DNA from: a virus
IMG/VR virus record: IMGVR_UViG_3300045922_001133
Span: 1-64,000 of that record
Direction: 5' to 3' (one strand)
DNA length: 64,000 nucleotides
In this document: positions 4,909 through 50,978 of the stretch, piece by piece
How positions within the stretch are numbered: position 1 is the first letter of the stretch
Layout: the number at the start of each line of letters is the position of its first letter
The notes under the pieces: generated by a model
Database searches by the model: none
What the model was told of the DNA's origin: nothing
What the model saw: only the letters and a program-made list of their open reading frames with translations
Translations under genes and position numbers: made by a program

Positions 4909-5342
4909 TGTTCTTGCTGTCCCTTCACGTGCTGCGTGAACGTCTCGTTGAGTTTCTTGATGGCCTCTTCGCAGTTCTGAACCCGGGCCTGAAGAGCGAG
5001 GAAGTTCTCGGTCAGCTTGCTCGTGAGTCGACGCTCCTCCCTGCGTTCCTTCCCTCGCCCCCTCAGCTCGCTGTACAGCGAATCGAACTCTTCGTTGACG
5101 TCCTTCTTGAGATCCTCGATCAGCTTTCTCAGCGCACCAATGTCTTCAGGGTACTTCTTCTCGAGCCACTTCTCCGTGTGATTCTTGACCCAGTCCTCAG
5201 TCTTGGGGAGCCGTTCACGTTCGATGGTACGGAGCCGGTCTTCGAGGTTCTTGGTGACCTTCCAAATCGTGCCCGCAACGCCGCCGACGCCGGACAGCAC
5301 CGGCGGGACGATCTTCCATGCGAGCTCGATGAGACCGGACAC
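4803..5342 (-). CDS. Coiled-coil protein with N-terminal hydrophobic segment, 179 aa
   Basis: Translation probably starts at GTG (5340-5342), seven bases after GGGAG; an ATG a little upstream is out of frame. Residues 7-28 (LAWKIVPPVLSGVGGVAGTIW) form a likely membrane or hydrophobic helix. The remainder is highly charged with heptad-like spacing (KKLIEDLKKDVNEEFDSL region, then EEAIKKLNETFTQHVKG) and should form a long coiled coil. It may be a rod-like virion component or a tail-associated membrane-contact protein. I do not recognise the family. Confidence 0.7.
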   Translation of the reverse strand: MSGLIELAWKIVPPVLSGVGGVAGTIWKVTKNLEDRLRTIERERLPKTEDWVKNHTEKWLEKKYPEDIGALRKLIEDLKKDVNEEFDSLYSELRGRGKERREERRLTSKLTENFLALQARVQNCEEAIKKLNETFTQHVKGQQEQWQEISRALGHIEGWLRAMSSRRTTSGEFPGPTKR

Positions 5343-5354
5343 TTCATGACTCCC

Positions 5355-5735
5355 TCAGCCAAGCAGCCACACGCGGACTCGGCCAGCTCCGGTGTACGCA
5401 ATGGACATCGAGGTGATGCCCGCCGAGGGTGTCGGCGAGCCGAAAGCGAAGAACCCGCCGGCCGAGAGCTCGACGGGCTTGTTGCCCCCGTTGATGGTGA
5501 CGTTGATCACGGGCGCGCCGACCGCGGGCTCGTAGACGACGAGCGCCGCCTTCGCGCCCGCCGCCGGCATCGTACCGAAGTCCACCGCCTGCGATCCCGC
5601 TCCCGCCGGAAAGCTGAACTCGAACTCGGCCTTCGAGTCGTACTGGTTCGAGATGCCGAAGGGCAGCGGCTCGAACGAGAGCCCGGGGGCTCCCGGCAGG
5701 TTCAGCTTCCCGTCGATGGAGAACGGAGTGCTCAT
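5355..5735 (-). CDS. Small beta-rich virion protein, 126 aa
   Basis: The ATG at 5735 overlaps the stop of the upstream tube-like gene (TGATG). The protein starts MSTPFSIDGKLNLPGAPG and has an alternating hydrophobic pattern typical of a beta sandwich (ALVVYEPAVGAPVINVTING). It has no charged helices or membrane segments. Its position just downstream of the tail sheath and tube genes suggests a tail-associated protein, but no family is recognised. Confidence 0.7.
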   Translation of the reverse strand: MSTPFSIDGKLNLPGAPGLSFEPLPFGISNQYDSKAEFEFSFPAGAGSQAVDFGTMPAAGAKAALVVYEPAVGAPVINVTINGGNKPVELSAGGFFAFGSPTPSAGITSMSIAYTGAGRVRVWLLG

Positions 5736-6558: not shown

Positions 6559-9500
6559 TCAGATGACGAGGGTGAGGCGGATGTAGTTGCAGGGGTACGG
6601 GACATCGAGCGTGACGTCGATGAGCACCGTGTCCGGCGCGTTCTCGTCCTGCACGATGTTGTTCATGTTCGCGCCGATGAGGACGCCGATGTCGGTCAGG
6701 AACTGGAGCAGGCCCTGAACGACGTGCCCGAGGCTGTCGAGGAAGCCCTGGGTGATGTTGAACCGTCCGATGTAGTTCTTCAGGCCGCTGCGCATGAACT
6801 TCGCGGTGAAGTCCACGACTTTCACGACCGAGTCCGTGCGGGTCTCGATCGAGGTCATGTCCGTCGTCAGCGCCATGCGTGACGTGAGGGGTGCGCCCTC
6901 GACGTCCTGCACGACGATGTAGTTGCCGCCGGCCGCGATGATGTTGAGCTGCTTCTCGGTGAAGTAGCCGTTCGAGCCGATGACCTTCGTGAACCCCGTC
7001 ATCGGGAAGTTCGTGAAGGACTGCTGCGGCGGCTGCTGACCGATCATGCCCGCGATGGCCGCGCACAGGTAGAAGCCGTCGACCTCCTGCTCGATACCGC
7101 CGATGGTCGCCGCCGCCTTGTCCGGGACGATCGACCAGAAGCGGCGGTTCAGGAAGGACTGGCCGAGATCCTGGTAGGTCTCCGCGATGCCCTGCTTGTC
7201 GAGGGTGCCGTCGGGCTGTGCGAGCGATGCTCCGCGGACGCGCACCGCGAACGGCTCATTGATGAGCGCGCTCGGGAGGGGCGGGTCGTTGAAGTCGGTC
7301 GTCGCGTAGAACCCGTCGTCGTTCTCGCCCGCGGCGAAGGTCGTCCGGATGGTGACCTGGCTGCCGGAGATGGAGGCGATGGAATACCGCTTGTTGTCCG
7401 ACGCGATGTCGATGAAGAGGCCCGAGGAGACGGGGATCGTCCCGACCGGGTTGATGCCGGCCGAGAGGACGAGCGCCGGGAGGTTCACGATGCCGGTGTC
7501 GAACACCGTGCCGCTCGAGCCGATCGTGTTGCCGCTGAGGCCCGACGCGACGAGCGTGTCGAGCTTCTTCGTGGGGGCGGAGAAGTTGAAGAGGCAGATG
7601 CGCTCTCCCTTCGCCGCCGGCGCGCTCATCGCGGTCACGTGGGTGTTGAATACCTGCGCGACCGCCTCGTCGTGGGTGAGCGGCGCGATCGCGTAGACCT
7701 CGTACGCCTCGAGGAACTCGGCGGCGCGGGTGAAGGCTTCGACCGTGCCGAACGGGGCGTCGGCGCTGATGGCGTCGACGCCGATGCCCTGGACCTGGCA
7801 GCCCGGCGCATTCTGGAGCGCGAACTGGAGGCCGAGCGCCAGCGGGTTGTTCACGTTCACCGGCGCGAGAAGGCTCTCGAGCTGGCTCGTGTTGTCGAGC
7901 TTCAGCAGGTTCGGATTCCGCGCGCGCGGCGAGACGTCCTGGCGGACCGCGCGGTACGACAGGTAGATCGGCGCCTTGCCCTCGAGCGGGTTGCCGATCG
8001 TGTCGCGGAGGAGGTCGTGCTTGAGCTGCGGGTCACCCTGGAGGTCGACCACGAGCTCGGGGTTCGGCCGCCCGCTGTTGCCCGGCGAGAGGTTCTTGGC
8101 GACCATCGTGAACTTGTCGCCGAGCGCGCTCGTGATCGGGATCTGCTTGTCGAGGCGGATGCGCGCGTTGTTGCCCCCGGGGGCGACCTGCGTGATGCGC
8201 CCGACGAGCGAGCCGTCGACGTAGAAGTCGTCGCCCGACGCCGGCGGGAACCCGCCGCCGTTGAAGCGGAAGAACTCCCCGCGCTGGTTCACGTCGAAGC
8301 CGAGGAGGAAGGCCGCCTCGTTCGAGCTCGCGGCAACCACCCGGACGTACGCCTTCTGGCCCACCGCCGCGGTGCCATTGAGACGGATGCGGAGCGCGCC
8401 GGAGACGACCTCCGCGGTGCCGTTCGCGCCGAGGGTGGTGTTGAGGGAGGTCGCAACGTCGCTCGCCGTGCTGCCCCCGGTGAGGCCGGAGAAGGTGTGC
8501 TCGACGATCGTCCCGTTGAGGTCGACCCGGAGCTTCTTCGTGTTGAGCGCGGTGAAGTCCGGTGCGATGTCCGCGAGAAGCCGCTGCCCCGTGACGCTCG
8601 GCACGAGGCCGAGGACCGGGAGAGCGGTGCCCTCGATGATCTTGAACGTGCTCTCCTCGCCGAGGATGTTGGAGGTGAGCACGAGCTGCTGGTTGCCGTT
8701 CGCCGTCGCCGTGAGCTGCCCGCCCCAGAACGCGTTGAGCTGGTCGAGGATCGCCGCCTGGTTCGCCGGCGCGTCGAAGACGAGGGTCTGCGGCTCGCGA
8801 CCGTTGACGCTCATCTTCAGGGTCAGGCCGTCGAGGTCGCCCGGGAGGGTGAGGCTCGAGAGGTCGACGAGGCCGGTCACGACCGCCGCCGTGCCCGGCG
8901 CCGTGAGGTTGTAGCCGGTGAGCTCGACGAGCGGGGAGACCGCGTCGCCGTTGCCGTCGTCCACGACCTTGATGCCGCTAGCGCCGCTCGCGGTGTTGTT
9001 CGGCGCGGCGAAGCCGAGCGGGGTGACCGCGGTGCCACCGATGATCTCCACCTTCGAGGAGGCGCCCTGCGTCTTCGACGTGATGCGGAGACCCGTGGAG
9101 ATGGAGCCGTAGACGCCGCCGAGCGCGTCGTTGAACTGCTGGACGAGCTCGTTTGCGGACTGCGGCTTGCCGAAGGTGACCGTGATCGGAGCGCCGCCGT
9201 CGAGCTTCACGAGGAGGGTCTTGTCGTCGACCGCGCCCGCGCCGTTGAGCGTGAGCCCGCCGATGCCGAGCGCGGCGTTCGCCGTGCCCGCGCCGACCGA
9301 GATGACGTCGCCGACCGCGCCCGTGATCCGGAGGTTCGTCGCGTTGATCGACGCCGTGACGCCGGGCCACGTCGATTCGATCGCCGCGAGGAGCGCCGCC
9401 TGGTTGGCCGCGTTCGTCGTGCCGTCCAGAGTGAGCGTCGTCGAGATGCCGTTCCGGACGAGGATGATCGTGAGGCCGTCGAGTGTTCCGCCGCCGCCGT

Positions 9501-10296
9501 AGAGCGCGCTATCGGTCGCATCGGTGTTGCCGGTGAAGAAGGCAGCCGTCGCGTAGGTGAGGCCCGCGAGCGCGACCGCGCCCGTGAGCTGCGCGGCCGT
9601 CCCATTCCCACCGCGGCGGAGGTAGCTCTGCGTGCGCGAGAGCTCGACGAGGTTCGTTCCCGAGCCCATCCCGAGGAAGACGCGGATGGAGGAGGCCTCG
9701 ATCGCGAGCTCGCTGAGGTTGCCCCGCGGGTCGGGGAAGGACGCCTGCGGGACCTTGAGGAAGTCCTGGTCGTAGGCGGTCGAGCCGACGAAGACGTAGC
9801 CAGCGACGAAGCCGAACGCCGCGAGGACCGACGGCGAGGTGGCCGGGCGGACTTCGATCGTCTGGAACTCGCCGACGCCGACGCTCTTGATGCGAAAGCC
9901 GTCGCCGACGACCTCGGCCGTCGCCTCGGTGACACCCTGCGCGAGGAAGGCGGCGAGGATTTGCTCGACCACCGCCGCCGGCGTGAGCGTCGCGCCGTCG
10001 AAGGTGACGGTGACGTCGGGGCCGTTGTTGATGGAGAGCACCAGGTCGTCGCCGTCGATCCCGGCGTACTGCGCCGGGTTCCCCGTGGCGTCCGCCGCGT
10101 GAAGAATCGCCGGGAGCGAGATGAGAGCGTCCGTGTTGATCTGGTTCCCGCCGCCGTCTGCCGGAACCAGAACGTCCACGATCTGCTTGCACACGCCCAC
10201 GACGCAAGGCACCAGGGTGGGCGTCACCACGGTCGGCGACGTCGACCGGAAAACCTGAATGACCTCGACTCCGGGACGCGGAAGTTCAGCCGCCAT
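6559..10296 (-). CDS. Tail sheath protein with five internal repeat domains, 1245 aa
   Basis: This is the contractile sheath that surrounds the tail tube. The N-terminus (RPGVEVIQVFRSTSPTVV) and the C-terminal domain ending in VPYPCNYIRLTLVI are typical of phage and T6SS-like sheath proteins, whose conserved C-terminal part forms the handshake interactions. A T4-type sheath has about 660 residues; this one has 1245. The excess comes from five related segments at about residues 84-168, 272-346, 360-430, 489-566 and 587-668, each running from an NG/DG turn with VTF or LVF to an LRI.S strand and a final LGF-type end. The start at 10296 has an AAGGAG site. Confidence 0.9.
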   Translation of the reverse strand: MAAELPRPGVEVIQVFRSTSPTVVTPTLVPCVVGVCKQIVDVLVPADGGGNQINTDALISLPAILHAADATGNPAQYAGIDGDDLVLSINNGPDVTVTFDGATLTPAAVVEQILAAFLAQGVTEATAEVVGDGFRIKSVGVGEFQTIEVRPATSPSVLAAFGFVAGYVFVGSTAYDQDFLKVPQASFPDPRGNLSELAIEASSIRVFLGMGSGTNLVELSRTQSYLRRGGNGTAAQLTGAVALAGLTYATAAFFTGNTDATDSALYGGGGTLDGLTIILVRNGISTTLTLDGTTNAANQAALLAAIESTWPGVTASINATNLRITGAVGDVISVGAGTANAALGIGGLTLNGAGAVDDKTLLVKLDGGAPITVTFGKPQSANELVQQFNDALGGVYGSISTGLRITSKTQGASSKVEIIGGTAVTPLGFAAPNNTASGASGIKVVDDGNGDAVSPLVELTGYNLTAPGTAAVVTGLVDLSSLTLPGDLDGLTLKMSVNGREPQTLVFDAPANQAAILDQLNAFWGGQLTATANGNQQLVLTSNILGEESTFKIIEGTALPVLGLVPSVTGQRLLADIAPDFTALNTKKLRVDLNGTIVEHTFSGLTGGSTASDVATSLNTTLGANGTAEVVSGALRIRLNGTAAVGQKAYVRVVAASSNEAAFLLGFDVNQRGEFFRFNGGGFPPASGDDFYVDGSLVGRITQVAPGGNNARIRLDKQIPITSALGDKFTMVAKNLSPGNSGRPNPELVVDLQGDPQLKHDLLRDTIGNPLEGKAPIYLSYRAVRQDVSPRARNPNLLKLDNTSQLESLLAPVNVNNPLALGLQFALQNAPGCQVQGIGVDAISADAPFGTVEAFTRAAEFLEAYEVYAIAPLTHDEAVAQVFNTHVTAMSAPAAKGERICLFNFSAPTKKLDTLVASGLSGNTIGSSGTVFDTGIVNLPALVLSAGINPVGTIPVSSGLFIDIASDNKRYSIASISGSQVTIRTTFAAGENDDGFYATTDFNDPPLPSALINEPFAVRVRGASLAQPDGTLDKQGIAETYQDLGQSFLNRRFWSIVPDKAAATIGGIEQEVDGFYLCAAIAGMIGQQPPQQSFTNFPMTGFTKVIGSNGYFTEKQLNIIAAGGNYIVVQDVEGAPLTSRMALTTDMTSIETRTDSVVKVVDFTAKFMRSGLKNYIGRFNITQGFLDSLGHVVQGLLQFLTDIGVLIGANMNNIVQDENAPDTVLIDVTLDVPYPCNYIRLTLVI

Positions 10297-10316: not shown

Positions 10317-11201
10317 TCACACCTTGAACGATGTACTCGTGACGGCCGTAACCGGCGCATCCGATTGTTCCACGGTGCCCCTTTGAATGGGAAGTACGCG
10401 TCCCCCCATCGAGGGAGGACGAAGCCCCGCGCGATACGGATGTGCGGGCCGAATTACAACCTGCTTCGCGGGATTCAGCGGGTGCGGCACCTTGTGTTCT
10501 TCCACCCCCGGAGCAGAAGTATCGACCTTGTGGCCGGTGACCGGGCCCTTGGAGAGAAAGGTCATGCCGCGCGCGCGAAGCGTGAAGCCGATCTGATCGA
10601 CGATCTCCTTGTTGAGTGGAGTGAAGACCGACGTCCGATGGAACTGGAAGGGCAGCGACGCGGTCGTGGCGTACCACTCATCAGCGCTGTCCGCGACCAC
10701 GAGCGAGCCCGCGGGCGACGGCGCGCCGACGACGAACTGCCGACCGATCTCGAAGAAGCCCGCCTTCATGAGCATCTCGCGGTGCATCCAGAGCTGCTCG
10801 GCGATGAGCCACGCGAGGTCTTCGCTCTCGACGTCGATGCGAGAGCAGACGTTCACGTTCATGATGCCGGAAATGAGGACCGACTTCTTCTTCTGCCCGG
10901 TCTCGAACTTGTAGTCGAGGAGGTCGTCGTGCCCGAGCGTATTCGACTGCACCGGGCCACGAGTGAAGTTCACCGCCGGGCGCTTGCCGACGACGTCGCC
11001 GTGGATGACGTTCTCGTCGGTGATGTAGATCTCCGTCTCATGCGGTACGGGGTGCCACCGATACGAGCCGGCGGGCGCGGCGGAGAAGAGCCCCTGGACG
11101 AAAGAGACGTATAGCGTGCGGACCTGACGAAGCGCGTGCGCCCGCCAGTCGTCCTGCGGGAAGTCACCCTCCGCGCGCGTCGTCTGAATCTTCGAGGACA
11201 T
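10317..11201 (-). CDS. Probable tail-completion/terminator or neck protein, 294 aa
   Basis: It is encoded immediately upstream of the tail sheath. A central region with kPAVNFTRGPVQSNTLG, a segment about SVLISGIMNVNVCSRIDVES and an amphipathic helix DLAWLIAEQLWMHREMLM resembles the layout of tail-terminator proteins, which cap the tube before head joining. The C-terminal third is a basic, proline-rich extension (PHPLNPAKQVVIRPAHPYR). Position and layout make a tail-completion role reasonable, but I see no single diagnostic motif. The start overlaps the preceding gene by 38 bases. Confidence 0.55.
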   Translation of the reverse strand: MSSKIQTTRAEGDFPQDDWRAHALRQVRTLYVSFVQGLFSAAPAGSYRWHPVPHETEIYITDENVIHGDVVGKRPAVNFTRGPVQSNTLGHDDLLDYKFETGQKKKSVLISGIMNVNVCSRIDVESEDLAWLIAEQLWMHREMLMKAGFFEIGRQFVVGAPSPAGSLVVADSADEWYATTASLPFQFHRTSVFTPLNKEIVDQIGFTLRARGMTFLSKGPVTGHKVDTSAPGVEEHKVPHPLNPAKQVVIRPAHPYRAGLRPPSMGGRVLPIQRGTVEQSDAPVTAVTSTSFKV

Positions 11202-11472
11202 CCCGTATTGCCTTCTGCTCCCGGGCCTTGTGCATAGCGTACGCGATGCCTGCGCCCGTACCCAACAGGGGCGCCGCGAGGAGGAGGTAGTTCTTCGGGA
11301 TGCTCTTGCCGGTGAGGCTGTTGTACGCCTTGTTCGCGAGGTACCCCGCGCCCATACCCGCAGCGGTGCCGGCGCCGTACGCCAGGGCGCCGCCTCCGAT
11401 GATCTTCCCGAGCTCGAGGTACTTCTTCGCGTCGGCGATCTTGAGCAGCTCTTCGGCGAATCCGGGGTACAT
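11164..11472 (-). CDS. Small membrane-like Gly/Ala-rich protein, about 102 aa
   Basis: The ATG at 11472 overlaps the stop of the upstream gene (TGATG); an in-frame GTG lies one codon earlier. It begins MYPGFAEELLKIADAKKYLE, a short helix also seen in varied form in other proteins of this block. Two hydrophobic segments follow: a Gly-zipper-like one (IIGGGALAYGAGTAAGMGAG) and YLLLAAPLLGTGAGIAYAM. The C-terminus is charged. Holins are small two-helix membrane proteins, but location in the middle of the virion operon and the shared N-terminal helix favour a virion-associated membrane protein. Confidence 0.6.
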   Translation of the reverse strand: MYPGFAEELLKIADAKKYLELGKIIGGGALAYGAGTAAGMGAGYLANKAYNSLTGKSIPKNYLLLAAPLLGTGAGIAYAMHKAREQKAIRDVLEDSDDARGG

Positions 11473-12374
11473 CACTTCACCCCCGGGTCGGTGTACGTCG
11501 TGCCGTAGAGGGAGAAGATCTTCGGGATCTCCTCGTCCTCGAAGTTCGAGAGGTTGTGCGGGTTGGTGAAGTTCCGCGCCGGCGAGAGCCAGAGGTCCTT
11601 GAGCGCTTCACCCATGTTGAGCGGGATGTTGTACTCGACGTCGCTCTGAGGAATGCGATGGAGCTGGAGCTCGTAGTGAACCGGCGACCGGACCTGCTCG
11701 GTCTGGTTCACCGCGACGACGCGCCAACGGATGTTCTCCGCTTCGATGAGGAGGTCGCGCGGCTTCACGTTGCCGATGTTCACGATGCGCGCGCTCGTGT
11801 TGAGCTGCTGCGTCGTACCGACCTGCGTGACGATTTCCCTCTTCGTGTCCTGCGCATCAATCTGCGCGAAGACCTCGATCGGGTGGAGGTAGCCGCGGGT
11901 GAAGCCCGTGTCAAAGCAGAGCGTGCATCCCGAGCGCGTACGCTTCTGCAGCGTCTGGTGCCAGCAAGTGCAGCGCTGTCCGAACGTGCGGACGGGAAGA
12001 AGCCAGCAGCGACGCCCAGTGAACTCGCGAAAGAGGAGCGCCATGTGCCGGCGTAGCTCCTTCGCGATGAGGTCGGCTTCCGCCTCCTGCAGCACAGGGC
12101 CGTAGTCCTTGAAGTCACCGCTCGGAACATGGGTGACGCGGACGACGTAGTGAAGCGCCCGGAACGCGTTGAACGGCTTCGTGAAGCGATCGTAGAAGAT
12201 GAAGCGGTCCTGAAAGGGCGACGAGAGCTTGTCCCAAGGGCCCGCCGCGGACTCCGAACGCAAGATCTCGAACTGGTAGTCGAGGACATCCTCCGCGGTG
12301 TCCTTGATCTGCCAGGTGATCTCGGTGAAGTCGACGTCGAGCGACCTCACCTTGATGCGCGAGACCTCCAACAT
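11472..12374 (-). CDS. Virion neck/connector protein with FN3-like N-terminus and zinc-ribbon motif, 300 aa
   Basis: Residues 1-95 show the alternating pattern and YVVRVTHVPSGDFKD ending typical of a fibronectin type III-like fold. Residues 133-162 contain CTC, then SGCTLCFDTGFTRGY, so C135/C137 and C150/C153 can bind zinc; a C..CxGTGxxGGYxxP pattern is known in proteins of large-phage neck regions. The rest is beta-rich and ends with NFTNPHNLSNFEDEEIPK. It sits between scaffold-like and tail-completion genes with start/stop overlaps on both sides. A head-tail connector role is inferred. Confidence 0.6.
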   Translation of the reverse strand: MLEVSRIKVRSLDVDFTEITWQIKDTAEDVLDYQFEILRSESAAGPWDKLSSPFQDRFIFYDRFTKPFNAFRALHYVVRVTHVPSGDFKDYGPVLQEAEADLIAKELRRHMALLFREFTGRRCWLLPVRTFGQRCTCWHQTLQKRTRSGCTLCFDTGFTRGYLHPIEVFAQIDAQDTKREIVTQVGTTQQLNTSARIVNIGNVKPRDLLIEAENIRWRVVAVNQTEQVRSPVHYELQLHRIPQSDVEYNIPLNMGEALKDLWLSPARNFTNPHNLSNFEDEEIPKIFSLYGTTYTDPGVK

Positions 12375-13390
12375 CAGACCTCGAGGGCCCGCGCCGCGTT
12401 GTAGAACCGGGCCGCCGCCTTCATGCGCTGAACGTTGTTCTTCCCCGGGAGCACGCGCCCGCGAGCCGCGTCGAGGCGATCGAGCGCGCGCATCGCGTGC
12501 GCCCGGAGCGGAGCGTTCTCGGGGAGCGGCGGCTTCGGCATGACGGAGTACTGCGTCGGGTTCTCGGCCTTCCCGATCGCGCCGCGCGCCCTGTCCGCAA
12601 GGCTCTTCACGTAGCTGGCGGTGGCATCGGTGAAGCTCTTGCCGCGCGGGCCCGACATCCGCATCCCGATACCTTTCGCGGCGGCGCCGGCCCCGGCGCC
12701 GAGACCTGCGCCCACGAGCGCACCGCCGAGACGGTTGTCCTTGCCACCGGCGAGCGCGCCGACACCCGCGCCGATGCCGGCGCCGACGAGCTTCGGGTTC
12801 GCCTTCGCGATCGAGAGCGCGGCGTTCAGCATGTTCGAGCCGAGCTTGTCCATGAGGTCGGACAGGTGGACGCCCTGCCGCGCGAGCGCGAGCCCCTTGC
12901 CCGCCTTGGCGAAGGAGAGCTTCTGCGGCTCGGCGTCAGGCCCGGCGTCGCCAGGCGCGCCGGCACCTTGGGCCTCGTCGTTCGGGACAACCGCCATCGG
13001 CTGCTCGGGACCTTTCGTCGGCGCCACAGAGCCGTCGCGCTGCGCCGCGACGAGGTCGAGGTCGAGCATCTTCTTCTGGAGGCGGATCTGGTCGCGCGCC
13101 CGGTAGATCGCGTCGCTCTGCTCGTGCGGCGCGGTCTGGGCGACCTCCAACTCGAGCTCAGCCTTCTCGAGCGCGAGCGCCTGGTCGAAGAGGGGCGTGC
13201 CCTTGTACTTCTCGAGCCAGGTCCGGCCTTCTTCGTCGGGCGAGCACTCGGCGAACGATAGCTTCACCTCCCCGGACGCGAGCTTGCGGAGGTCCTCCTC
13301 CGGCAGCGTGGAGAGGACGTTCGCGAGCTTCACACTCTCCGACTGACGGAGCTCGTGGTCGTAGGCAACGGTGAGAAAGGTATCGAGCAT
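12374..13390 (-). CDS. Virion-cluster protein with Gly-zipper membrane-like region, 338 aa
   Basis: I place the start at 13390 because the CGAGG site is correctly spaced for it and not for the ATG six bases upstream. The N-terminal part is helical and acidic and includes SVKLANVLSTLPEEDLRKLA. After an Ala/Gly/Pro linker near residue 145, residues about 200-245 form a strongly glycine-patterned hydrophobic stretch (LVGAGIGAGVGALAGGK then LVGAGLGAGAGAAAK). The C-terminus is basic. Three or more proteins in this operon share this Gly-zipper design. A virion-internal or membrane-interacting protein is possible; no family is recognised. Confidence 0.65.
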   Translation of the reverse strand: MLDTFLTVAYDHELRQSESVKLANVLSTLPEEDLRKLASGEVKLSFAECSPDEEGRTWLEKYKGTPLFDQALALEKAELELEVAQTAPHEQSDAIYRARDQIRLQKKMLDLDLVAAQRDGSVAPTKGPEQPMAVVPNDEAQGAGAPGDAGPDAEPQKLSFAKAGKGLALARQGVHLSDLMDKLGSNMLNAALSIAKANPKLVGAGIGAGVGALAGGKDNRLGGALVGAGLGAGAGAAAKGIGMRMSGPRGKSFTDATASYVKSLADRARGAIGKAENPTQYSVMPKPPLPENAPLRAHAMRALDRLDAARGRVLPGKNNVQRMKAAARFYNAARALEV

Positions 13391-13392
13391 GG

Positions 13393-16137
13393 TCATCCTC
13401 GGATGGTGTGGGCGAGTTCACGGATTATCGGGCCGGCCGTCGAGCCGGCCCGGGCGCCGAGCGCGGCGCCGAGAGCGATGGCCGCAGTCGGGTGCTTCTG
13501 CGCGAGCTCGCCGGCGGCGAGGCGCATCTTCGCCTGCGCGATGTTGAGGGCGTTGCCGAAGCTGCCCGATCCGGACTGCTCGGCGGCCTCGAGCTTCTGC
13601 ACCTTGCTCCGGAGCTTTTCGTTCGAGGCCCCACGCGACCGGTTCTCGATCGCTGTGACGCCGGCGCCGATACCGGCGCCGACGAGTCCGCCGATGAGCC
13701 GATCGCGCAAGGCAGCCTCTTTGTACTCCGGCGTCTCGCCGGGAGCGGACTCCGAGTACCCGATCTCCGCCGCCGGCGAAGAAGAGGGGTCGCTCGCAGT
13801 CGGGCTCACGCCGGGGCCATCCTTGCCCGGCGTAGAAGAGCCCGGCGGGGTGCCGGCGTCGCCGCTCGCCGCCGGCGTCCCTGCCTGGTTCCCTCCCGGG
13901 TCCTGACCGCCCATGAGCGCCTGTTCCTGAGCCTGCTGATCGGCCGCAGCCTGATACGCAGAGCCACCCGCCTCCATCGTCGTCGACGGCGGGAGCTGGG
14001 TGTTCACGATCCCCATGAGCTGCTGCTTCAGCCCCTGCATCGCGTCGCGCATCTGCGTCGCGAGCTGCTGCTGCTGCAGTGTCTCGTTCGAAGCCGCGAG
14101 CGACTTCTGCATCGCAGCCGCCGCCGCGGCGTTCGCCGCGTTGACCTGCTGCATCGCCTGCTCCTGGATCTGCTGCGCCTGGGCGAGCGCCTGCTGGTTC
14201 ATCTCCGAGCTCATGGCGACCTGCTCCTGGAGCTGCTGGACCTGCTGCTCTGCCGCCTGAAGGCGCTGCATCGCCTCGATGAAGCGCTCGCGGTAGTACA
14301 TTCTCTCCGCGGCATCCTGCGCCTGCTGCGCGGCGCTTTCCTCGGCGAGGTAGGCCTCGAGCTCGTTGGCCTCTTCACCCCCGGGCACCGGCGGCGCCGT
14401 CGGCGCGCCGCCCATCTCGGAAAGCGCGCGCTTGAACCGCTCGGCGAGCTTGGTGTGCTGGCCGGCGGCGGGGCCGGAAAGCGGGGGAGGGGGAGGGGGA
14501 GGCGGCAGGACCTTGCCCTGGGCCGCGTCGGGCAACCCCTCCGACTTCTTCTCCTTAAGAGGGCCCTTCGCCTTTCGACGAGCCCTCTGTAGGGCCGCGA
14601 GCGCGGCGATGGTGCCCACGCCGATCGCGGCGGGGGCGGTGCCGGGGCCGAGGGGGCCCTTGGGGCCGAGGAGGCCCTTCGCCTTTCGACCAACCCTCCG
14701 TACCTTTCGACCAACCCTCAGCGCCGCGGTCGCGGCGCTGTCAGCCGCGTTCCGCATGGAGGTACTGAAGGTCTTGTACTTCTTACCGGTCGGCGTCGCC
14801 CGAAGCTCCCGAAGGAGGTCCTCGGCCGAAGGCCCCTTGGCCGCCGCTTCCTTGAGGTTCCCCTCGAGGTCCATCTCGGGGACGAAGACCGTAGGCGACT
14901 TTGAGGCGAGCGCGAGCTTCATCGCCGCGCCGTGGTAGCGGAGCGTGTCGGGGTGGAAGCGCTCGACGCGGGCGGAGGCCTTCTTCTCCTTGGGAACACG
15001 CGTCCGGACGGAGATCGGGCCGAGCTTCAGGCGCTCCTTGTATTGCGAAGGATCGTCCAACCAAGCCATGTCGCTCTCGATCCGGTCCATCTCCTTCTCT
15101 GCTTTTTCCCCACGAAGGACACGGATGAACGCCGTCTTCGCGGCAACAGCAGCGGTGTCGACAGCCTCGTCAGGCGCAGCAGCCGTCTTCGCCTTGCCCT
15201 CGGACTTCTTCTTGTGGTGAACGGCGTGCGCCGCGTGCGCGCCGCCTATCGCGCCGCCGACGGCGCCGAGCGCTGCCAGGAGAGCCTTCTCTCGCGGGGA
15301 CATCTTGATGCCGAGCGCCTTCGAGCCGTAGATGGTGCCGCCAGTCAGGGCGCCGAGCGCGGCGCCGCGAAGTGCCGGATGCTTCTCATCCCCTTCGGTC
15401 ATGAGACCGCCGGCGAGCGCGCCGTAGCCGGAACCGGGGAGCGGGTTCAAGAAGCCGTGGCCGAGCGCGTAGGGCTGAACCTCCTCGAACGAGGCGGCCG
15501 TCTTGCCCTCCGGAGCGGCCTCCGGGGTGACCACCGCTTCCTCGGCGGCCCCCGCCTGGGGGTCGACCACCGCCGGGGGCGTGCCCGCCGTCGCCGCGGT
15601 CTCCGCGTGGGGGAGGAGCTGCCAGAGCTCGTCGAGGTGCTCCTGTTCCTTCGTGAGGTACTCCTCGATCTTGAAGCGCGTCGGGTTGTCCTCTCCGACG
15701 AGCTTCCGGAGATGCTGCCAGTTCGCGATGCCTTCCTGCTCCATCTGGATCATCGTCTTGATGATCTCGACGGGGTCAGAGCTTGGCGGGGGCGCGGGGA
15801 TGTCCGGGACTTCGACCGCGCCCCCGAGAACGCTCATCCGCCGGAGGAGGAACTCCGCGTGCTCGGTCTCGTGCTGGGCGTGGTGTTGGAGCTCCTGCGC
15901 GATCGAGTGGTGCGCGAGGTCCCGCAACGACTGCGAGTACACGATGTACGCATAGTGCGTCTTGAGCTCGTTCTGCACCATGAGCGCCATGTGCTCGAGG
16001 ACTTCCTCGATGGGGGCAGCGAACTGCCCCTCTAGCACGCCCGTCTCGTCTGGAGCCGCGGTCTTCAGCTTCAGGAAGAAGGCAGCGGCCTCGTGAAGCG
16101 GGATACCGTTCTCGATTTTGAACACGGTGCTCATCAT
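13393..16137 (-). CDS. 914-aa virion-cluster protein with N-terminal ferritin-like diiron domain
   Basis: Residues about 45-175 have the four-helix ferritin/bacterioferritin ligand pattern: E57 in QNELKTHYAY, E90 and H93 in HETEHAEFLLRRMSVLGG, E133 (or E135) in QMEQEG, and E164 and H167 in KEQEHLDEL. That gives the E, ExxH, E, ExxH set that binds two irons. The remaining ~740 residues contain Gly-rich hydrophobic stretches, a basic region (GRKVRRVGRKAKGLLG), poly-proline, and a Gln-rich coiled coil about residues 590-720 (AAEQQVQQLQEQVA). KTA peptides recur (EGKTAAS, KAKTAAA, AAKTAF). It lies among neck and scaffold-like genes; an in-frame ATG at 16134 is an equally good start. Iron oxidation or storage is known for the fold; here the function is inferred. 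Confidence 0.75.
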   Translation of the reverse strand: MMSTVFKIENGIPLHEAAAFFLKLKTAAPDETGVLEGQFAAPIEEVLEHMALMVQNELKTHYAYIVYSQSLRDLAHHSIAQELQHHAQHETEHAEFLLRRMSVLGGAVEVPDIPAPPPSSDPVEIIKTMIQMEQEGIANWQHLRKLVGEDNPTRFKIEEYLTKEQEHLDELWQLLPHAETAATAGTPPAVVDPQAGAAEEAVVTPEAAPEGKTAASFEEVQPYALGHGFLNPLPGSGYGALAGGLMTEGDEKHPALRGAALGALTGGTIYGSKALGIKMSPREKALLAALGAVGGAIGGAHAAHAVHHKKKSEGKAKTAAAPDEAVDTAAVAAKTAFIRVLRGEKAEKEMDRIESDMAWLDDPSQYKERLKLGPISVRTRVPKEKKASARVERFHPDTLRYHGAAMKLALASKSPTVFVPEMDLEGNLKEAAAKGPSAEDLLRELRATPTGKKYKTFSTSMRNAADSAATAALRVGRKVRRVGRKAKGLLGPKGPLGPGTAPAAIGVGTIAALAALQRARRKAKGPLKEKKSEGLPDAAQGKVLPPPPPPPPLSGPAAGQHTKLAERFKRALSEMGGAPTAPPVPGGEEANELEAYLAEESAAQQAQDAAERMYYRERFIEAMQRLQAAEQQVQQLQEQVAMSSEMNQQALAQAQQIQEQAMQQVNAANAAAAAAMQKSLAASNETLQQQQLATQMRDAMQGLKQQLMGIVNTQLPPSTTMEAGGSAYQAAADQQAQEQALMGGQDPGGNQAGTPAASGDAGTPPGSSTPGKDGPGVSPTASDPSSSPAAEIGYSESAPGETPEYKEAALRDRLIGGLVGAGIGAGVTAIENRSRGASNEKLRSKVQKLEAAEQSGSGSFGNALNIAQAKMRLAAGELAQKHPTAAIALGAALGARAGSTAGPIIRELAHTIRG

Positions 16138-17894: not shown

Positions 17895-19016
17895 TCAGTA
17901 GGTGTTGACCTGCGGGAACTTGAGGCCGGCGTCCACGCGGTTGTTCACCGCGCCGATGGCCTCCTCGGAGACCGGGATGAAGTTCTCGAGGAGCGCGTCC
18001 GCGTTCGTCACCGGGTTGGCGTCGGCGGAGTAGAGCTCCAACTTGCGGCAAGCCGCGATGTTGATGATCCCCATGCCGATGTCCTCCCAGGCCTGGAACG
18101 TGATGAGGTTCGCGATCTTGTCGATGTAGAACTTCGTCGCGTTCAAGACATAGAACTTCCCGAAGAACTCCGGCTTCGTGAAGCAGTACACGTTGCCCGG
18201 ACGGAGGATGTCCGTCTTGATGGTGCGGACGTACGGCCGGCCCATCAGGGTGTTGTACTTGTAGCCGTCGACGGCCGTCTCCGACTGGAGGCGATCGCCG
18301 AAGTCCTCGACCGTCCACTGGAGAAGGTCGTCCCAGTCGACCTCCGTCATCAAGAGACGCTCCGCCCGGAGGCGGTTGCCGTCGAGCATCTTGAAGAGCC
18401 GGACGATGTCCGGGCGCTGGACGGGGCGAACGACCGCGTCGTTGGTCGTCGCGGTGCGAGCGAGCTCTCCCTTCGCGACCGAGAACTCGACCGGCGGCGA
18501 GTTCTGGATCGCCGAGGCGTTGAGCGCCGCCGGCGTACCGCCGTTCGCCTCCACCTGGAGCGCCTGGACGGCCGCCTCCACGTGGATGATGAACTCGCGG
18601 TCCTCGACCTCCTGGATGTCCTTCACCGAGTTCTCCTCGATGATCTTGGTGATGGGCATCTCGTAGGCGAGAAGCTCCTGCTCCGTCTTCTGGAAGATCT
18701 CGCTCGCGATCGTGAAGAACGCGATCTCGGCCTTCGGGCCGCGGATGAAGCGGGCCTTCGGCTGGCCGCGGAAGGTGACGCTCATTGCGCGCGAGCGGGG
18801 CTCGACATCGACGATCTTCACCAGGGTGTCGTGGTTGACCGACCGCTGGCAATCGGCGCGGGTAACCTGTTCCGGTGGCAGGATCTTGCGGGCGAAGGAG
18901 ACCTCGCGCAGGCGGTCGCGGATGTACGCGCCGCCGTACTCGGCGATCTTTTCCTTGCCCTCGGCCGACCCGAGCTTGGTCGCGAAGAGGTCGTTCAGAA
19001 CACGGGGGGAAACCAT
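17895..19016 (-). CDS. Major capsid protein, 373 aa
   Basis: The length, position and composition match an HK97-fold major head protein. A charged helical N-terminal arm (residues 1-60) is followed by a beta-rich core with an E-loop-like segment (SRAMSVTFRGQPKARFIRGPK), a long spine-like helix (AEIAFFTIASEIFQKTEQEL), and a C-terminal domain with MGRPYVRTIKTDIL and GMGIINIAACRKLELYSA. The leader AAGGAGAACAACACATG is among the strongest in the window. A hairpin follows the gene. It is flanked by scaffold-like genes upstream and head proteins downstream, as expected for the capsid module. The N-terminal arm is not obviously a long cleaved scaffold. Confidence 0.85.
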   Translation of the reverse strand: MVSPRVLNDLFATKLGSAEGKEKIAEYGGAYIRDRLREVSFARKILPPEQVTRADCQRSVNHDTLVKIVDVEPRSRAMSVTFRGQPKARFIRGPKAEIAFFTIASEIFQKTEQELLAYEMPITKIIEENSVKDIQEVEDREFIIHVEAAVQALQVEANGGTPAALNASAIQNSPPVEFSVAKGELARTATTNDAVVRPVQRPDIVRLFKMLDGNRLRAERLLMTEVDWDDLLQWTVEDFGDRLQSETAVDGYKYNTLMGRPYVRTIKTDILRPGNVYCFTKPEFFGKFYVLNATKFYIDKIANLITFQAWEDIGMGIINIAACRKLELYSADANPVTNADALLENFIPVSEEAIGAVNNRVDAGLKFPQVNTY

Positions 19017-19654: not shown

Positions 19655-20020
19655 TCAGCCGATGCCGCCCAGGATGAATCGTTCGAACTCCGACGGACCG
19701 CCGGAGGTGTGTCCCTCGTCGCTCGTGAGGTGGGCGATCTTCTGGCCCATGTTCGGGCCCACGAGATCGACCGCCTCCGCGATCTTCTCGAGGCGACCGC
19801 TTGCGGCGGCCTTCTCGAGCTGATCGACGAGATCCTTGATAGGGACGTCGAGGCTGATGCCCTTCTCGTGCATCGCATGCGCGACCTTCTCGGCCTCTTC
19901 CCGCTGCATGCGCGCCTGGGCCTCCTTCTTCCAGAAGTCCCGCTCCGCCGCGAGCTTGCGGAGGGTTTCGGGGACCTGGGAGAGGACCAACTGCACCTGC
20001 TCTGCGCTCAACTTCTTCAT
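19655..20020 (-). CDS. Small helical scaffold-like protein, 121 aa
   Basis: The protein is almost all helix: an N-terminal QVQLVLSQVPETLRKLAAER segment, a charged coiled-coil middle (KKEAQARMQREEAEKVAHAM) and a C-terminal GGPSEFERFILGGIG. It lies four bases from the gene upstream, and both precede the capsid genes, as expected for scaffold or core proteins. It contains the LEKAAASGRLEKIAEA stretch, another variant of the KTA/KIA peptides of this block. The family is not recognised. Confidence 0.65.
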   Translation of the reverse strand: MKKLSAEQVQLVLSQVPETLRKLAAERDFWKKEAQARMQREEAEKVAHAMHEKGISLDVPIKDLVDQLEKAAASGRLEKIAEAVDLVGPNMGQKIAHLTSDEGHTSGGPSEFERFILGGIG

Positions 20021-20023
20021 GGC

Positions 20024-21028
20024 TCAGCCCGCCTTCTTGGCGGTAGACTCCGCCATCTTCTTGAGGAGGGCCCGCGCCGCGGCCGTCTTGACCTGGCCGG
20101 AGGACGAGATCTTCACGCCGGCCTCGCCCGTGTGAGCGAACGCCTTCTGGAGCGTGTTGTCCGTCGCCGACGTGAGCGCGGGCTCGTTGAAGTACTGCTT
20201 CAGCTCCGCCTTGCGGGGAGCGTACGCCGTGCCCTTCTTGTAGTCCTTCGCTGCCTCGTTCGAATGAACGAGGGAGCGGGGACCCTGCGGGGCGCCGGCG
20301 GCGGGTTGACCGCCGGGCTCCTCGGACGCCGACGTCTCCGGGGGGACCGCGGCGCCGGCGGAGATCTTCGCCGGGTTGATCGCGTCCTCGGCGACCTTCG
20401 TGGACGCGAGGAAGTAGTCGACGAGCGTGGCGGGGGCCGAGGCCTCCTTCTTGTCGTCATCCTTCTTCGCGAACGGGGGCGCCTTCTTGCCGTCGCCCTT
20501 CTTCGGCGGGCACTCGGCCGCCTTCACGCCGGCGAGCTTCGCGAGCCGCGCGCGCGTGATGTCGGTGACGCCCGCCGTCTTGCCCTTGCCGCCACTGAGC
20601 GCGGTGGTCTGGGTGCCGGGGACATGGTGGTGCGCCGTGTTCTCCATCTGGGTCGCGGCGCCGGCGACGGCCTTCTGGGTGCCGGGGTGCTGCGGGGGCT
20701 GGGCGTGGCCCTTCCCCTGGCCCGACGGCGTGAAGACCTGGGTCTGGCTCTGCTGCGACGCGCTCACGCCGTCGGGCGGAACCGCGGAGTTCGAGGCCGC
20801 CTTCACGATCTCGGGAAGCGCGTACTCGACGGCGTTCGCGAGCTTGATCGCGAACTCCGTGGAGACGGTCTCCTCGTCGAGGGCAGCGGGGGCGGAAGCT
20901 TCCTTGGCGGTGCCCTCCGAGAGGCCCACCTGACGCGCACCCTCGGCCGCGATCGCGGCGGCGCGAGCGTCCTTGGAAAGCGCCTCCTTGACGAGGTCCT
21001 GGATGAGGGGGCGGGACGTCATGTTCAT
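20024..21028 (-). CDS. Scaffold/core-like protein with KTA peptides, 334 aa
   Basis: The protein is low in aromatic residues and high in Ala, Lys, Pro and Gly, like phage internal scaffolds. Helical N-terminus (RPLIQDLVKEALSKDARAAA) and C-terminus (KTAAARALLKKMAESTAKKA) flank flexible linkers. Short peptides recur: AKEASAPAALDEE, GKTAGVTDI, KKEASAPATLVDY and VKTAAARALL. These repeats may be cleavage or docking sites. The start at 21028 has AAGGA; a second ATG lies two codons in. It sits directly before the 121-residue helical gene and the capsid gene. Confidence 0.65.
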   Translation of the reverse strand: MNMTSRPLIQDLVKEALSKDARAAAIAAEGARQVGLSEGTAKEASAPAALDEETVSTEFAIKLANAVEYALPEIVKAASNSAVPPDGVSASQQSQTQVFTPSGQGKGHAQPPQHPGTQKAVAGAATQMENTAHHHVPGTQTTALSGGKGKTAGVTDITRARLAKLAGVKAAECPPKKGDGKKAPPFAKKDDDKKEASAPATLVDYFLASTKVAEDAINPAKISAGAAVPPETSASEEPGGQPAAGAPQGPRSLVHSNEAAKDYKKGTAYAPRKAELKQYFNEPALTSATDNTLQKAFAHTGEAGVKISSSGQVKTAAARALLKKMAESTAKKAG

Positions 21029-21072
21029 GTTCGGGTTCCTTGGGGCGAGACGTCGGAATCTGAAGCGGTGAG

Positions 21073-21100
21073 GGGCCGGACCCCGGAAGGAGTCCGGCCC
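21073..21100 (-). terminator. Hairpin between two scaffold-like genes
   Basis: A 9-bp perfect stem (GGGCCGGAC / GTCCGGCCC) with a 10-base loop lies just past the stop of the 339-residue gene. No T-tract follows, so it may attenuate or stabilise mRNA more than fully terminate. Confidence 0.6.
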
Positions 21101-21108
21101 GGATGGGT

Positions 21109-22128
21109 TCAGCTCTCCCAGGTGACCGGGTAGCCCGCCGCCTCGAGGTACTCGAGCGCGCGGACGTCGACGGCGCTGTCAACGTCGATCGCCGCGGCGA
21201 CCTTCTCGCTCTCGCCGAGCAGGTCGAGGGTGTGAACCGCAGCGACCCTCTCGGCCGCCTGATCCAGGTCCCAGCCTGCCTCGGCTGCCTTCTCGACCGC
21301 CGCCACGAGCGCGAGCTCGTCGATGGCGCTCGACTCCTTCTTCCGGCCCGCGTACATCGCCGCGCCGGCGCCAGCCGCCGCCGCGCCCGCAGCGCCGAGA
21401 CCCGCGCGCGTCATCGTGACCTTCTTGGCCTCCGACTTCGCCGCCGGCACGTACTTCTTCGCGAGCGCCTGCCAGCCTGTCTGCGTGCTCGAGCCGCGCT
21501 CCTTCGCCTCGCGGGCGGAGCGGATCGCGGTCTCGGCCCTGGCCTTGAGATCCTTCGCCTTCGACCCGGTGACGAGCTCGTCGACGCGCTTGGCCGCGTC
21601 GCCGCCGTAGCGCTTCGCCTTGCCGGCGAGGTACTTGCCCTTGTCGAGCGCCTTGGCGAGCTGCGGGGGCATCGCTGCCTCCTTGCTCTCCTCGATCTCC
21701 GGGATCTCGCCCGGGTCCATCTCGGCCTCGGCCGAGGCCTCCTTGGAGATCTCGCGGAGCTCGGCGACGAGCGAGTGCGCCATGACCTTACCGAGGAAGG
21801 TCGCCTCGGCCATCTTGGCCATGGCTTCCTTCTTCTCGGCAAGCTCCCGAGCCGCCTCTTCCTTCTTGGCGTCCCCGTCCTCGTCCTCGTCCTCCTTGTC
21901 ATCCTCGCCCGCGGTCTTCTCGTAGCCGTCGAACGTGGCGTTCCAGAGGGTGGCGATCTGGTCCTCGGAGAGCTTGTCGAGGTCAATGCCGTTGTCCGCC
22001 GCGAGCTTGCAGAAAAGCTCCATCTGGGCGGTCTTCTCCGCCTCGGCGTCGGGGGCATCCGTCGTGTCGTTGACGAAAGCGGTCTTGGTGTTGCCGAAGT
22101 ACTCGGCGAGGAACTGGTCCATGGCCAT
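21109..22128 (-). CDS. Acidic scaffold/core-like protein with one hydrophobic segment, 339 aa
   Basis: The start region (MAMDQFLAEYFGNTKTAFVN) carries a KTA peptide, and further copies appear in EKTAQMELFCKLA and YEKTAGEDD. A very acidic stretch (DDKEDEDEDGDAKKEEAA) near residue 78 is followed by long Ala/Glu/Lys helices and a Gly/Ala hydrophobic run (LGAAGAAAAGAGAAMYAG) near residue 255. The middle segment LDKLSEDQIATLWNATF looks constrained. The gene lies between the intein-bearing protease-like gene and the other scaffold-like genes. A core or scaffold protein role is inferred. Confidence 0.65.
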   Translation of the reverse strand: MAMDQFLAEYFGNTKTAFVNDTTDAPDAEAEKTAQMELFCKLAADNGIDLDKLSEDQIATLWNATFDGYEKTAGEDDKEDEDEDGDAKKEEAARELAEKKEAMAKMAEATFLGKVMAHSLVAELREISKEASAEAEMDPGEIPEIEESKEAAMPPQLAKALDKGKYLAGKAKRYGGDAAKRVDELVTGSKAKDLKARAETAIRSAREAKERGSSTQTGWQALAKKYVPAAKSEAKKVTMTRAGLGAAGAAAAGAGAAMYAGRKKESSAIDELALVAAVEKAAEAGWDLDQAAERVAAVHTLDLLGESEKVAAAIDVDSAVDVRALEYLEAAGYPVTWES

Positions 22129-22158: not shown

Positions 22159-25100
22159 TCACGTGTTCCTCGAGGGGAATCCCCTCTCCACGCCGGCTCT
22201 CGCCTGTTTGGTATCGGGTTCAGCCTGCTCGTCAATGAAGGCCCGATTGAGGTACTCCACCGAGAGCGGACTGAAGACTTCTTCTGGGCTCGCACTGGAA
22301 AGCTTACGGAACTCGGACGCCGAAGAGGAAGAGACCCCCTTCAACAAGTCCTGCGTGTGAGCTGTTAGTTCCATGAGCTGATCGCGGTACGAGTTGTACG
22401 CAGCACCAATCTTACGCAGCAGATCAGAAGAAAGGGAAGAACACCCCCTCTTCTCCTTGGGCGCTGAAGTGATGCCCCAGAGCAGCCGACGCTCGAGGGC
22501 TGGAGCGATGGCAGACCGCTCCATCAAGAAGGGCAGGAGCAGTCGAACAAGAGCGGGGATGAAGTCCTTCGAATCGAGCTTCAACGGCGCTCGCTCGTGC
22601 GTCTTCGGGAACACCTCGCCCAGCATGTCGAGCTCGTCGGCGACGTCGGGAGCACCGAGCTGCACGAGGATGATGCGCTGGAACTCGCGCGGTCGAAGAA
22701 CGATGCCGAGGCCGCCCGTCGACGCGAGAGCGCCCTTCAAGTCGCCCCGGCCCATCAGGTTCAAGAGGTCCCGGGGTAGATCCTGCTCGGCCGCGTTGAG
22801 CGCTGGGATCGCCTTGCCCGCGAACTGCGAGGGGATGACGTCCTTGATGATCTCGCTCTTCTTCGCCTTCGCGTTCTTCCCGAAGGCGGCCTCGAAGACG
22901 AGGTCTTCGAGCGCAGACGCAGTCTTCACCTGCGACGGCTCTTCGCTGTAGCCGAGCTTCTCGGCCATCTCGGCGCTCGGGCCGATGTCCCAGAAGGCGC
23001 TCGGACCGGAGGCGATCTTCATCATCGTCTTGGCCGTCTTGTCGGCGCCGATGAAGACGAACGAGATGTCGAAGAAGCGCGGGTAGTCGTTGTAGACGAA
23101 GACCTTCCTGCCGTCGGGCAGGATGCGGTTCATCTGCTTCTTGGCGTGGTCGCAGTTGTGCACTGCGTACGAGCCGGCAACGTACGAGTGGTCGTCCTCG
23201 ACCTCGAAATTGTAAAGCGGCCCGTCGTACTCCTCGTAGGTCAGCTTGCGAATCGACGTCGCGAGGTAGCCGTTCCAGAGAAAGAGCTTCGATTGCTGGG
23301 CGACTTCTTGCTGCCGTCGCCCTTCGCGGATGGCGAGAGCGGCATCCCCCGAGAAGCTGACGTACCAGATGGTTTGGTCCCCGTAATTGGTTCGACGGGC
23401 ATAGCGGTGAAGCGAGCCGACGACGCCGCAACAGGCGGCGAGAAGCTGCATCTGCTTGGCGAGTTCAAGTGAAGAGGTCGCGACGCGCAACACACCCTTG
23501 CGCTCATCGTAAGAACCATCGCCGACGGCCCAACCGCGGAGGACCTGATGACAGAACGCCTGCCCCATCTGCCAGACAGCAGGAGACAGGGACTTGGTAC
23601 GGCTACCCCTGCCTCCATGCTGCAGTAGCCACTCCGCGACGCGACGGCTGTTGATGCGTAGCTCAAGCGCGTTCTTGTCGCTGTAGGCACGGTACTTCTC
23701 CGTACACCCCGGGTCCATCGCCTTAGCCGCCAAAGCTGCCTCTTCGAGCAGACTTCTTTCCGAGCCATGGACGGTGAAGCGAACCGACTTGGGGTAGGTG
23801 ACACCTGTACTGAAGTTGACGCCGCCCTCGGCCAGGTAGAGCCCGAGCAGGAAGCCGTACGCCGCATCCATCGGCGATTCGTCGGTTAGGCGCGGTAGGG
23901 GGCACAGCACAATGTCCCCTACCTGCAGGTCACCTGCATGGACCCAATCAAGGCGCTCTTGCAGGCTCTGCTCTCGCGCCTTCTTCTTGCGAGGCCTGGC
24001 TGAGAGGAACGGGTGGTTGTCCGTGGCTTGGACAGGCAAAAATCCCCAGGCGTCGATGCCAACGAGTACCGACGGACCCCTACTCGGCAGTAGCTGCGTG
24101 ACCGGTTTGCCTACGCCCTTGTGTGTCAGGACTTCGTCGCCGACGTTGATGTCCTCGATGTTCTTGGTTGACCCATCCGCTAGCAGGATCGGGGTACCCG
24201 GCGGGAAACAGTAGTCCGCGCGCGTGATGGAGAGACCACGGATCTTGTGCTTGTTCTTGTGGAAGGCGAGGACGGCTTCGCCCGGGTGCTTATGCTTCTT
24301 CGGGTCGAACGTCGCCTGCGCCTCGCGATAGAGCTTCCAGTCGAGGCAGATCGAGCAATTGTGAACTGCCCGACCCTCCGCTACGTAGCTCTCGTCCCGG
24401 TCGACGGAGAGGTTGAAGACCTCGACGTCGCCGTCAAGTTCCTCGACAGCCTTTACTGGCGTGAGCCAGTACCCGTTCCAGAAGAAAGACTGCGGAGATT
24501 CCCACCCGACATCGACTGGCGTGACCTTCGTAGAGCGCCCCAAGAACTTCTGACTTTGGGCAGTCGACAGGACGAGGTACCAGAACTCCGAGTTCACACC
24601 GAAACTGGAGTTCGTGCCGGCGAAGCACACGGTCGCCGTGATGCCCTCCGACAACAGAAGTCGCTGAACGTCGAGCAGAAGTCCTCGATTCACCGATGCG
24701 ATACGGATCTGACCCCTCGCATCGAAGGAACCATCCGTATCGATGTACCCCGCGACGAGCTCGAGCTTCGCTTCACGAGACCAGTAGAACACCTCCTCGT
24801 TGAGGTGCTTCCCGTGAGATGTGCGCCCGCCCCACTTCTGGAGCCACGCCGCGAGGGACTGATCGTACACCGAAACGATGTGCGCCTTTCGATCATTACC
24901 CGCGTCGTAGACGTTGGGCTCGTTCGCAGCACCAGCCTCGACAATCGTACGAAAAAGACGCTGAAGATGCGCGGTCTCCTCTGAACCAACCGAGAACCCG
25001 AAACCCACATCCCGGTAGTCGCCGTCTTTCCTCTTTCCCGTGCGCTGCCGGATGATGTAGCCGTCGCCGAGGTAGTAGCCGAGGAGACGTGCTTGTGCGG

Positions 25101-46633: not shown

Positions 46634-46734
46634 GGGGGCAGGGTACTCCACGCCGCGGAAACGCAGCAAGACGCGCACACGCAGAGAGATAAGGACTTCG
46701 AGGGCGCACACGAAACGCCGCCCTGGGAGTCGTC

Positions 46735-49485: not shown

Positions 49486-50978
<1,493 letters not shown>

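Follow-up and report, generated by a model that had tools for sequence, protein, structure and literature searches.

A ferritin-like diiron domain in a putatively head-associated protein of large uncultured tailed phages

What is the role of a ferritin-like diiron domain in a 914-aa phage protein encoded among virion genes? To our knowledge, iron chemistry within phage particles is mostly conjecture. In the open-access literature searched for phage ferritin in a virion or head setting, this fusion was not described. The analysis presented here suggests that some phages may build an iron-handling enzyme into their particles or load it into them. Furthermore, one phage group offers a natural comparison of intact, ligand-less and domain-less versions of the same protein. 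This makes a virion-borne ferroxidase and its purpose directly testable.

The gene, its protein and its phage group

The window, i.e. the whole stretch of 64,000 nucleotides analysed, is drawn from a virus record that has a length of 66,280 bases and belongs to class linear. The following features are used below:

17895..19016, minus strand: major head (capsid) protein, anchor for comparison (phrog_2522, E = 1.3e-9; capsid of Salmonella phage Arash, 29.5% identity)
13393..16137, minus strand: 914-aa ferritin-domain protein (ORF and translation; orthologs sit likewise downstream of the capsid gene)
16054..16104, minus strand: conserved N-terminal leader IPLHEAAAFFLKLKTAA, residues 12-28 (ortholog sequences and alignment)
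15613..16011, minus strand: ferritin-like diiron four-helix domain, residues 43-175 (PF00210, AlphaFold2, VIA, invariant ligands)
15496..15504, minus strand: K-T-A motif, residue 212, C-terminal to the ferritin domain (sequence)
15208..15480, minus strand: Gly/Ala-rich hydrophobic segments, residues 220-310 (sequence)
13978..14376, minus strand: Gln/Ala-rich predicted coiled coil, residues 588-720 (C-terminal alignment)
13396..13722, minus strand: conserved C-terminal module with two Gly-zipper-like segments, residues 806-914 (C-terminal alignment)
12374..13396, minus strand: next gene, 340 aa (weak glycine-zipper match; K-x-A near the N-terminus)
6559..10296, minus strand: tail sheath protein, C-terminal match (phrog_279, E = 2.4e-7)

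The earlier note had assigned the domain to residues 45-175 (15613-16005, minus strand) and the gene to the region between capsid and tail genes. Both statements hold: The coordinates are exact and fall within an intact 914-aa ORF, and this ORF lies between the capsid gene and the tail sheath, which is matched in the C-terminal part of its ORF. The remainder of the protein had been described as 'Gly-rich hydrophobic, proline-rich and coiled-coil', and this is correct. The ORF is uninterrupted. Its ATGATG start is preceded by GGAGGGAGA, a good ribosome-binding site, and shares an ATGA overlap with the stop codon of the preceding gene. GC3 amounts to 0.86, and the GC content by codon position is typical of the neighbouring genes. 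Between 12000 and 20000, no Rfam match for a structured RNA was found.

The leader is common to orthologs with and without the ferritin domain in the alignment. In the copies read, it takes the form IPLxEAAxFFxxLK at the start of the proteins encoded at this position. The domain is an optional insert behind the leader, i.e. relatives either have it or lack it between leader and remainder. Helix D of the domain is followed by a proline-rich linker. A coiled coil is present in most aligned orthologs, ferritin or not, and is not recognisable in relative L014. Coiled coil, proline-rich stretch and Gly-zipper-like C-terminal module form the end of nearly all aligned full-length proteins at this position. 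This is best explained by a modular protein composed of leader, optional cargo domain, Gly-rich hydrophobic segments, coiled coil and Gly-zipper C-terminus.

A search of viral contigs with the capsid protein yielded 153 related stretches. Of these, 80 loci were retained, several of them on contigs of 120-196 kb. The phages with this gene position are a group of large uncultured, contractile-tailed phages of about 190 kb. By capsid, the nearest named phage is Arash. The gene order capsid, g215, connector-like gene, g155, ferritin-protein position, g340, g300, g103, g294 and sheath is conserved across the group, although some small genes are not recognised in some loci. In all relatives with both genes mapped, the gene at the ferritin position is located downstream of the capsid gene. 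An ortholog of the 914-aa protein was not found in Arash, where the connector gene is directly followed by the g300 homologue. A single-sequence search with the full-length protein gave no match in isolated phages or viral contigs, and the domain alone gave none among isolated phages. This means that the relatives found are uncultured, not that others are absent. As to a cellular source of the domain, the one genome scan returned solely a phage contig of the group (L098, JAKPDW010000082.1). Binning had placed L098 in a Myxococcota (Deltaproteobacteria) MAG, which hints weakly at the host.

Some further genes of the window are of note. A single ORF of 2671 aa (38696-46711, minus strand) combines beta (Rpb2) and beta-prime (Rpb1) RNA polymerase domains with a homing-endonuclease domain, probably an intein. 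Arash has two separate genes annotated as RNA polymerase beta. Intein or homing-endonuclease domains are present in at least four genes (22159-26058, 28645-32820, 38696-46711 and 57607-59880), a high load for one phage. They comprise terminase, RNA polymerase, a ResIII-type helicase and a 1299-aa head-region protein, perhaps the portal, which carries two. On the plus strand, 49104-50978 encodes a DUF2201 putative metallopeptidase with a VWA-like domain, a MoxR/VWA-type companion gene.

Fold, diiron ligands and variants of the domain

Residues 54-175 match PF00210 (Pfam Ferritin) with 57.9 bits and E = 1.4e-15 at a curated cut-off of 24.5 bits. The isolated domain as query scores 63.8 bits. In the PDB, a single-sequence search finds bacterioferritins and ferritins at E values of about 3e-6. 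A profile of nine phage copies retrieves the DPS-like protein PA4880 as best match (E = 1.4e-11) and, in addition, many ferritins and bacterioferritins. Structure prediction, one of the checks named in the earlier note, returned a four-helix bundle: AlphaFold2 with the nine phage sequences places four long helices at 14-44, 48-75, 93-118 and 124-145 (model numbering) with a pLDDT of 90.6 and a pTM of 0.85. The model shows the long B-C crossover of this fold. VIA-align superimposes it on Thermotoga ferritin with a Z score of 18.9 (rmsd 2.1, 138 residues), on PA4880 with 18.7, on mini-bacterioferritin with 18.5 and on E. coli bacterioferritin with 18.2 (138-140 residues aligned for Thermotoga ferritin, PA4880 and E. 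coli bacterioferritin). Z scores of 18-19 are well above the warning level of the tool for helical bundles.

The diiron ligands E57, E90, H93, E133, E164 and H167 form the bacterioferritin-type set E, ExxH, E, ExxH within a single chain. None of the six varies in the nine-sequence set, and this still holds when the distant relatives L094, L095 and L097 are added. For the third glutamate, the earlier note had offered E133 or E135. As L002 has D and L076 has Q at position 135, whereas position 133 is invariant in the intact copies, E133 was retained as ligand and E135 rejected. Outside the ligands, the domain varies: Members of the intact group are 55-68% identical to the copy in the window. For six of seven intact-domain pairs, dN/dS ranges from about 0.05 to 0.33, the lowest value belonging to a pair with saturated dS; the seventh pair, L011/L014, is near-identical (dS 0.01) and hence uninformative. 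Judged from these sequences, the domain is under purifying selection. Thus, the bacterioferritin-type diiron domain of the earlier note is strongly supported by the predicted bundle, the ligands invariant in intact relatives and the purifying selection. Computation supports both fold and diiron site well. Occupancy by two irons and oxidation of Fe(II) would follow from the conservation of the ligands.

The relatives display three states of the domain. On a quick capsid tree of 61 rows, some of which are near-copies of each other, 38 rows are without the domain, 15 (window included) have domain and ligands, and seven have lost the ligands. In L096, one of these seven, only H93 is changed (to D). 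The three states require at least 10 changes on this tree, and its starred branches enforce at least four changes between presence and absence. Seven relative records of 186-196 kb do not contain a ferritin match anywhere. Distances between domains and between capsids are correlated only in part (Mantel r 0.48, p 0.02). Therefore, pure vertical inheritance of the domain was rejected, and both inheritance and exchange are likely.

The five ligand-less domains compared retain six of 30 ligand positions, but 91 of 145 further positions at which the intact copies do not vary (Fisher p = 3e-5; the rows are not independent). A ligand-less domain is nevertheless predicted as the same bundle with a pLDDT of 89.0 and a Z score of about 18, using an alignment that included intact copies. 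This means that the fold can outlive the metal site. Since the domain is optional and sometimes ligand-less, the protein can do without iron chemistry. The six or seven relatives that keep a bundle without ligands are what one would expect if the domain were a structural module, i.e. a ferritin-derived four-helix dimerising bundle that aids protein assembly and whose iron binding is incidental or ancestral. However, a purely structural role would not hold six ligands invariant in the intact group while the rest of the domain varies. We consider this explanation rather unlikely.

Head association and possible roles

Does the 914-aa protein belong to the head? Relative to shuffled sequences, the motif K-[TLEIV]-A is 2- to 9-fold enriched across orthologs in the capsid protein, the scaffold-region proteins, the orthologs of the 914-aa protein and g340/g103. 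In the sheath, g294 and g300, its frequency is close or equal to the expected one, and it is likewise unenriched in g155 and g215. These counts are inflated by homology, as in gconn, where 8 times the expectation apparently stems from one conserved site. In a slightly wider form, the motif is present 52 times in the minus-strand proteins of the window versus 16 +/- 4 expected, an about threefold excess. K-[TLEIV]-A or a close K-x-A variant flanks the ferritin domain in most orthologs that could be judged and is rarely located inside it. In many orthologs, K25 and the K-T-A at residue 212 bracket the domain. Most orthologs have the conserved leader followed by K-x-A; the motif is short and has no strong flanking consensus. 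In 19655-22128, 13393-16137, 11164-13396 and their relatives, K-[T/L/I/V/E]-A often lies close to the N-terminus, where it follows a short helix (MDQFLAEYFGNTKTAF, VDEFLEEFGPAEKTAGF).

The motif may mark targeting or head-protease sites. Its distribution resembles that of head-protease substrates, and we propose cleavage at K-x-A by analogy. A prohead protease was not recognised among the window genes scanned. All prohead proteases studied cut an N-terminal propeptide off the capsid protein; the internal proteins of T4 have short N-terminal capsid-targeting sequences, are cleaved and ejected (PMC7411985). In addition, ferritin genes recur in head clusters of two unrelated phages. In L097, a different lineage in which no capsid protein of the window's phage group was found, the gene of a ferritin-domain protein with all ligands (4364-5455) precedes the portal gene by a few bases. 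Ahead of its bundle, this protein has a PDxTGxLEGQF stretch in common with the window protein. L110 carries a standalone bacterioferritin-like gene (7986-8462), its ligands intact, between a portal/endolysin pair and a head maturation protease. As both were retrieved with ferritin-pattern searches, they demonstrate recurrence, not its rate. Gene position, the head-type motif and these two cases lend moderate support to a head-associated product. Indirectly, they also speak for the localisation of the domain in the phage particle that the earlier note had suggested.

As possible roles, the earlier note had put forward protection of DNA, use of host iron and a part in entry. The reading to which we tentatively lean is that of a diiron ferroxidase module on a head-associated, probably ejected protein that guards phage DNA from iron and peroxide. 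The domain, computed as a ferritin four-helix fold with six diiron ligands in one chain, would bind two irons and oxidise Fe(II) with O2 or H2O2. The leader would guide the protein into the head, where the domain might be released by proteolysis at the flanking K-T-A. This step is based on gene position, the motif common to head proteins and the recurrence in other head clusters. Fe(II) and peroxide would then be removed near the phage DNA, either in the capsid or soon after ejection, resulting in less Fenton damage. The benefit of the module may vary with host and habitat, which would explain its gain, loss or decay. A more specific form of this proposal is doubtful in our view: Here, the ferroxidase would be a cargo brought into the head by the leader, freed at K-T-A by the head protease and scavenging iron or peroxide for the packaged or ejected genome, while the slot carries something else or stays empty in other phages. 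Comparison of the sequences counts against the leading proposal: With about 38 relatives lacking the domain and six or seven having lost the ligands, the chemistry is dispensable.

Standalone Dps-like proteins and manganese catalases have been found in phages and linked to oxidative stress tolerance (PMC8008677; PMC6669764). Proposed to aid hosts under oxidative stress, such genes are precedents for a late-expressed ferroxidase that would serve the infected cell by iron storage or peroxide removal for the host. The L110 gene stands alone within its head cluster, and late expression may suffice there. By contrast, the published cases are free enzymes, whereas here the domain is fused to a coiled-coil/Gly-zipper protein in a morphogenesis cluster. 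An action in the infected cell seems improbable to us, although it is, together with a structural role of the bundle, the main competitor of the head proposal.

Alternatively, the product might belong to the neck or tail, as its gene has head-tail connector-like genes on one side and the tail sheath on the other. Exposed there, iron would aid adsorption or entry via iron-uptake receptors (Ferrojan Horse idea). Iron binding in phages has been discussed for tails, e.g. for the tail fibre of an Alteromonas phage, in which iron-binding domains are predicted (PMC11705849). However, the K-x-A pattern groups the 914-aa protein with head and not with tail proteins, searches of Pfam and PHROGs did not reveal a receptor-binding or fibre domain, and buried diiron sites do not present iron to receptors. 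Taken together, we regard such a role of the iron in adsorption or entry as very unlikely. Finally, the idea that a helical phage protein resembles ferritin by chance or composition can be discarded with near certainty: The ligand spacing, which arises in 469 of 20,000 shuffles of the whole protein (about 2%), is by itself not decisive, but the profile match at E of about 1e-15, the predicted fold at Z 18-19 and the conservation of six invariant ligands carry the case.

Likeness to known systems

Which known proteins does the phage domain resemble? With bacterioferritin (E. coli 1bcf, mini-Bfr 9qq4) it has the four-helix bundle and the intrachain E, ExxH, E, ExxH set in common. It differs in its low identity of about 18-25% and in being embedded in a 914-aa protein. 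Furthermore, the haem-binding methionine of bacterioferritin, which follows the helix-B glutamate (M52 in E. coli), is replaced by T91 after E90. This residue is not methionine in the aligned intact relatives of the window's clade and is methionine in L046. Bacterioferritins also have a short helix E and assemble into a cage of 24 subunits; helix E is not present in the modelled stretch, which ends behind helix D. Since the haem-ligand methionine is absent and the model has no helix after helix D, the domain is not filed as a bacterioferritin.

PA4880 (8w1d) and the Sulfolobus DPSL (2clb) have a bacterioferritin-like di-metal site as found in the phage domain, but both occur as free dimers or dodecamers, whereas the phage domain is fused. 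DPSL proteins (thioferritins) are marked by a conserved cysteine pair in addition to the Bfr-like diiron site. Residues 1-180 of the window protein contain no cysteine, and thus lack this pair. In canonical Dps proteins, two subunits share the ferroxidase site, and the B-C loop contains a short helix. The phage ligands are intrachain, and the model has no helix in this loop (model residues 76-92). NCBIfam Dps models reach E values of 0.004-0.006 only, far below the cut-off. The phage domain is a member of the ferritin superfamily with the bacterioferritin diiron set and without canonical Dps features.

The standalone phage Dps-like proteins of Lactobacillus plantarum phages and 'Gratiaviridae' also belong to the ferritin superfamily, and oxidative protection is their proposed role. 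However, the Lactobacillus phage genes are separate and located near replication genes, the 'Gratiaviridae' proteins are free enzymes, and neither is a fusion in a head cluster. In BFVD, ferritin-like folds are present in longer proteins of uncultured Caudovirales (A0A6J7WVS4, 498 aa; A0A6J7WPK9, annotated as prohead protease). A few of these proteins are named prohead protease. Their identity amounts to about 7-15%, none matches at E <= 0.001, and the protein names are automatic.

With the T4 internal or ejection proteins, the 914-aa protein has a short N-terminal leader before a cargo domain and a candidate cleavage motif in common (PMC7411985). The window protein carries K-x-A in place of T4-type sites, and the likeness seen is one of layout. 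Encapsulins with ferritin-like cargo provide a conceptual parallel. They have an HK97-fold shell and a short terminal loading peptide. They differ from the phage case, in which packaging is putative, in the type of ferritin and in the shell. If the cargo proposal is true, a redox enzyme is among the cargoes that phages load into their particles, and protein engineers would have a natural cargo slot in a large capsid at hand. A head-packed ferroxidase would then be the viral counterpart of the encapsulin-ferritin compartments, and its cargo slot would be swappable.
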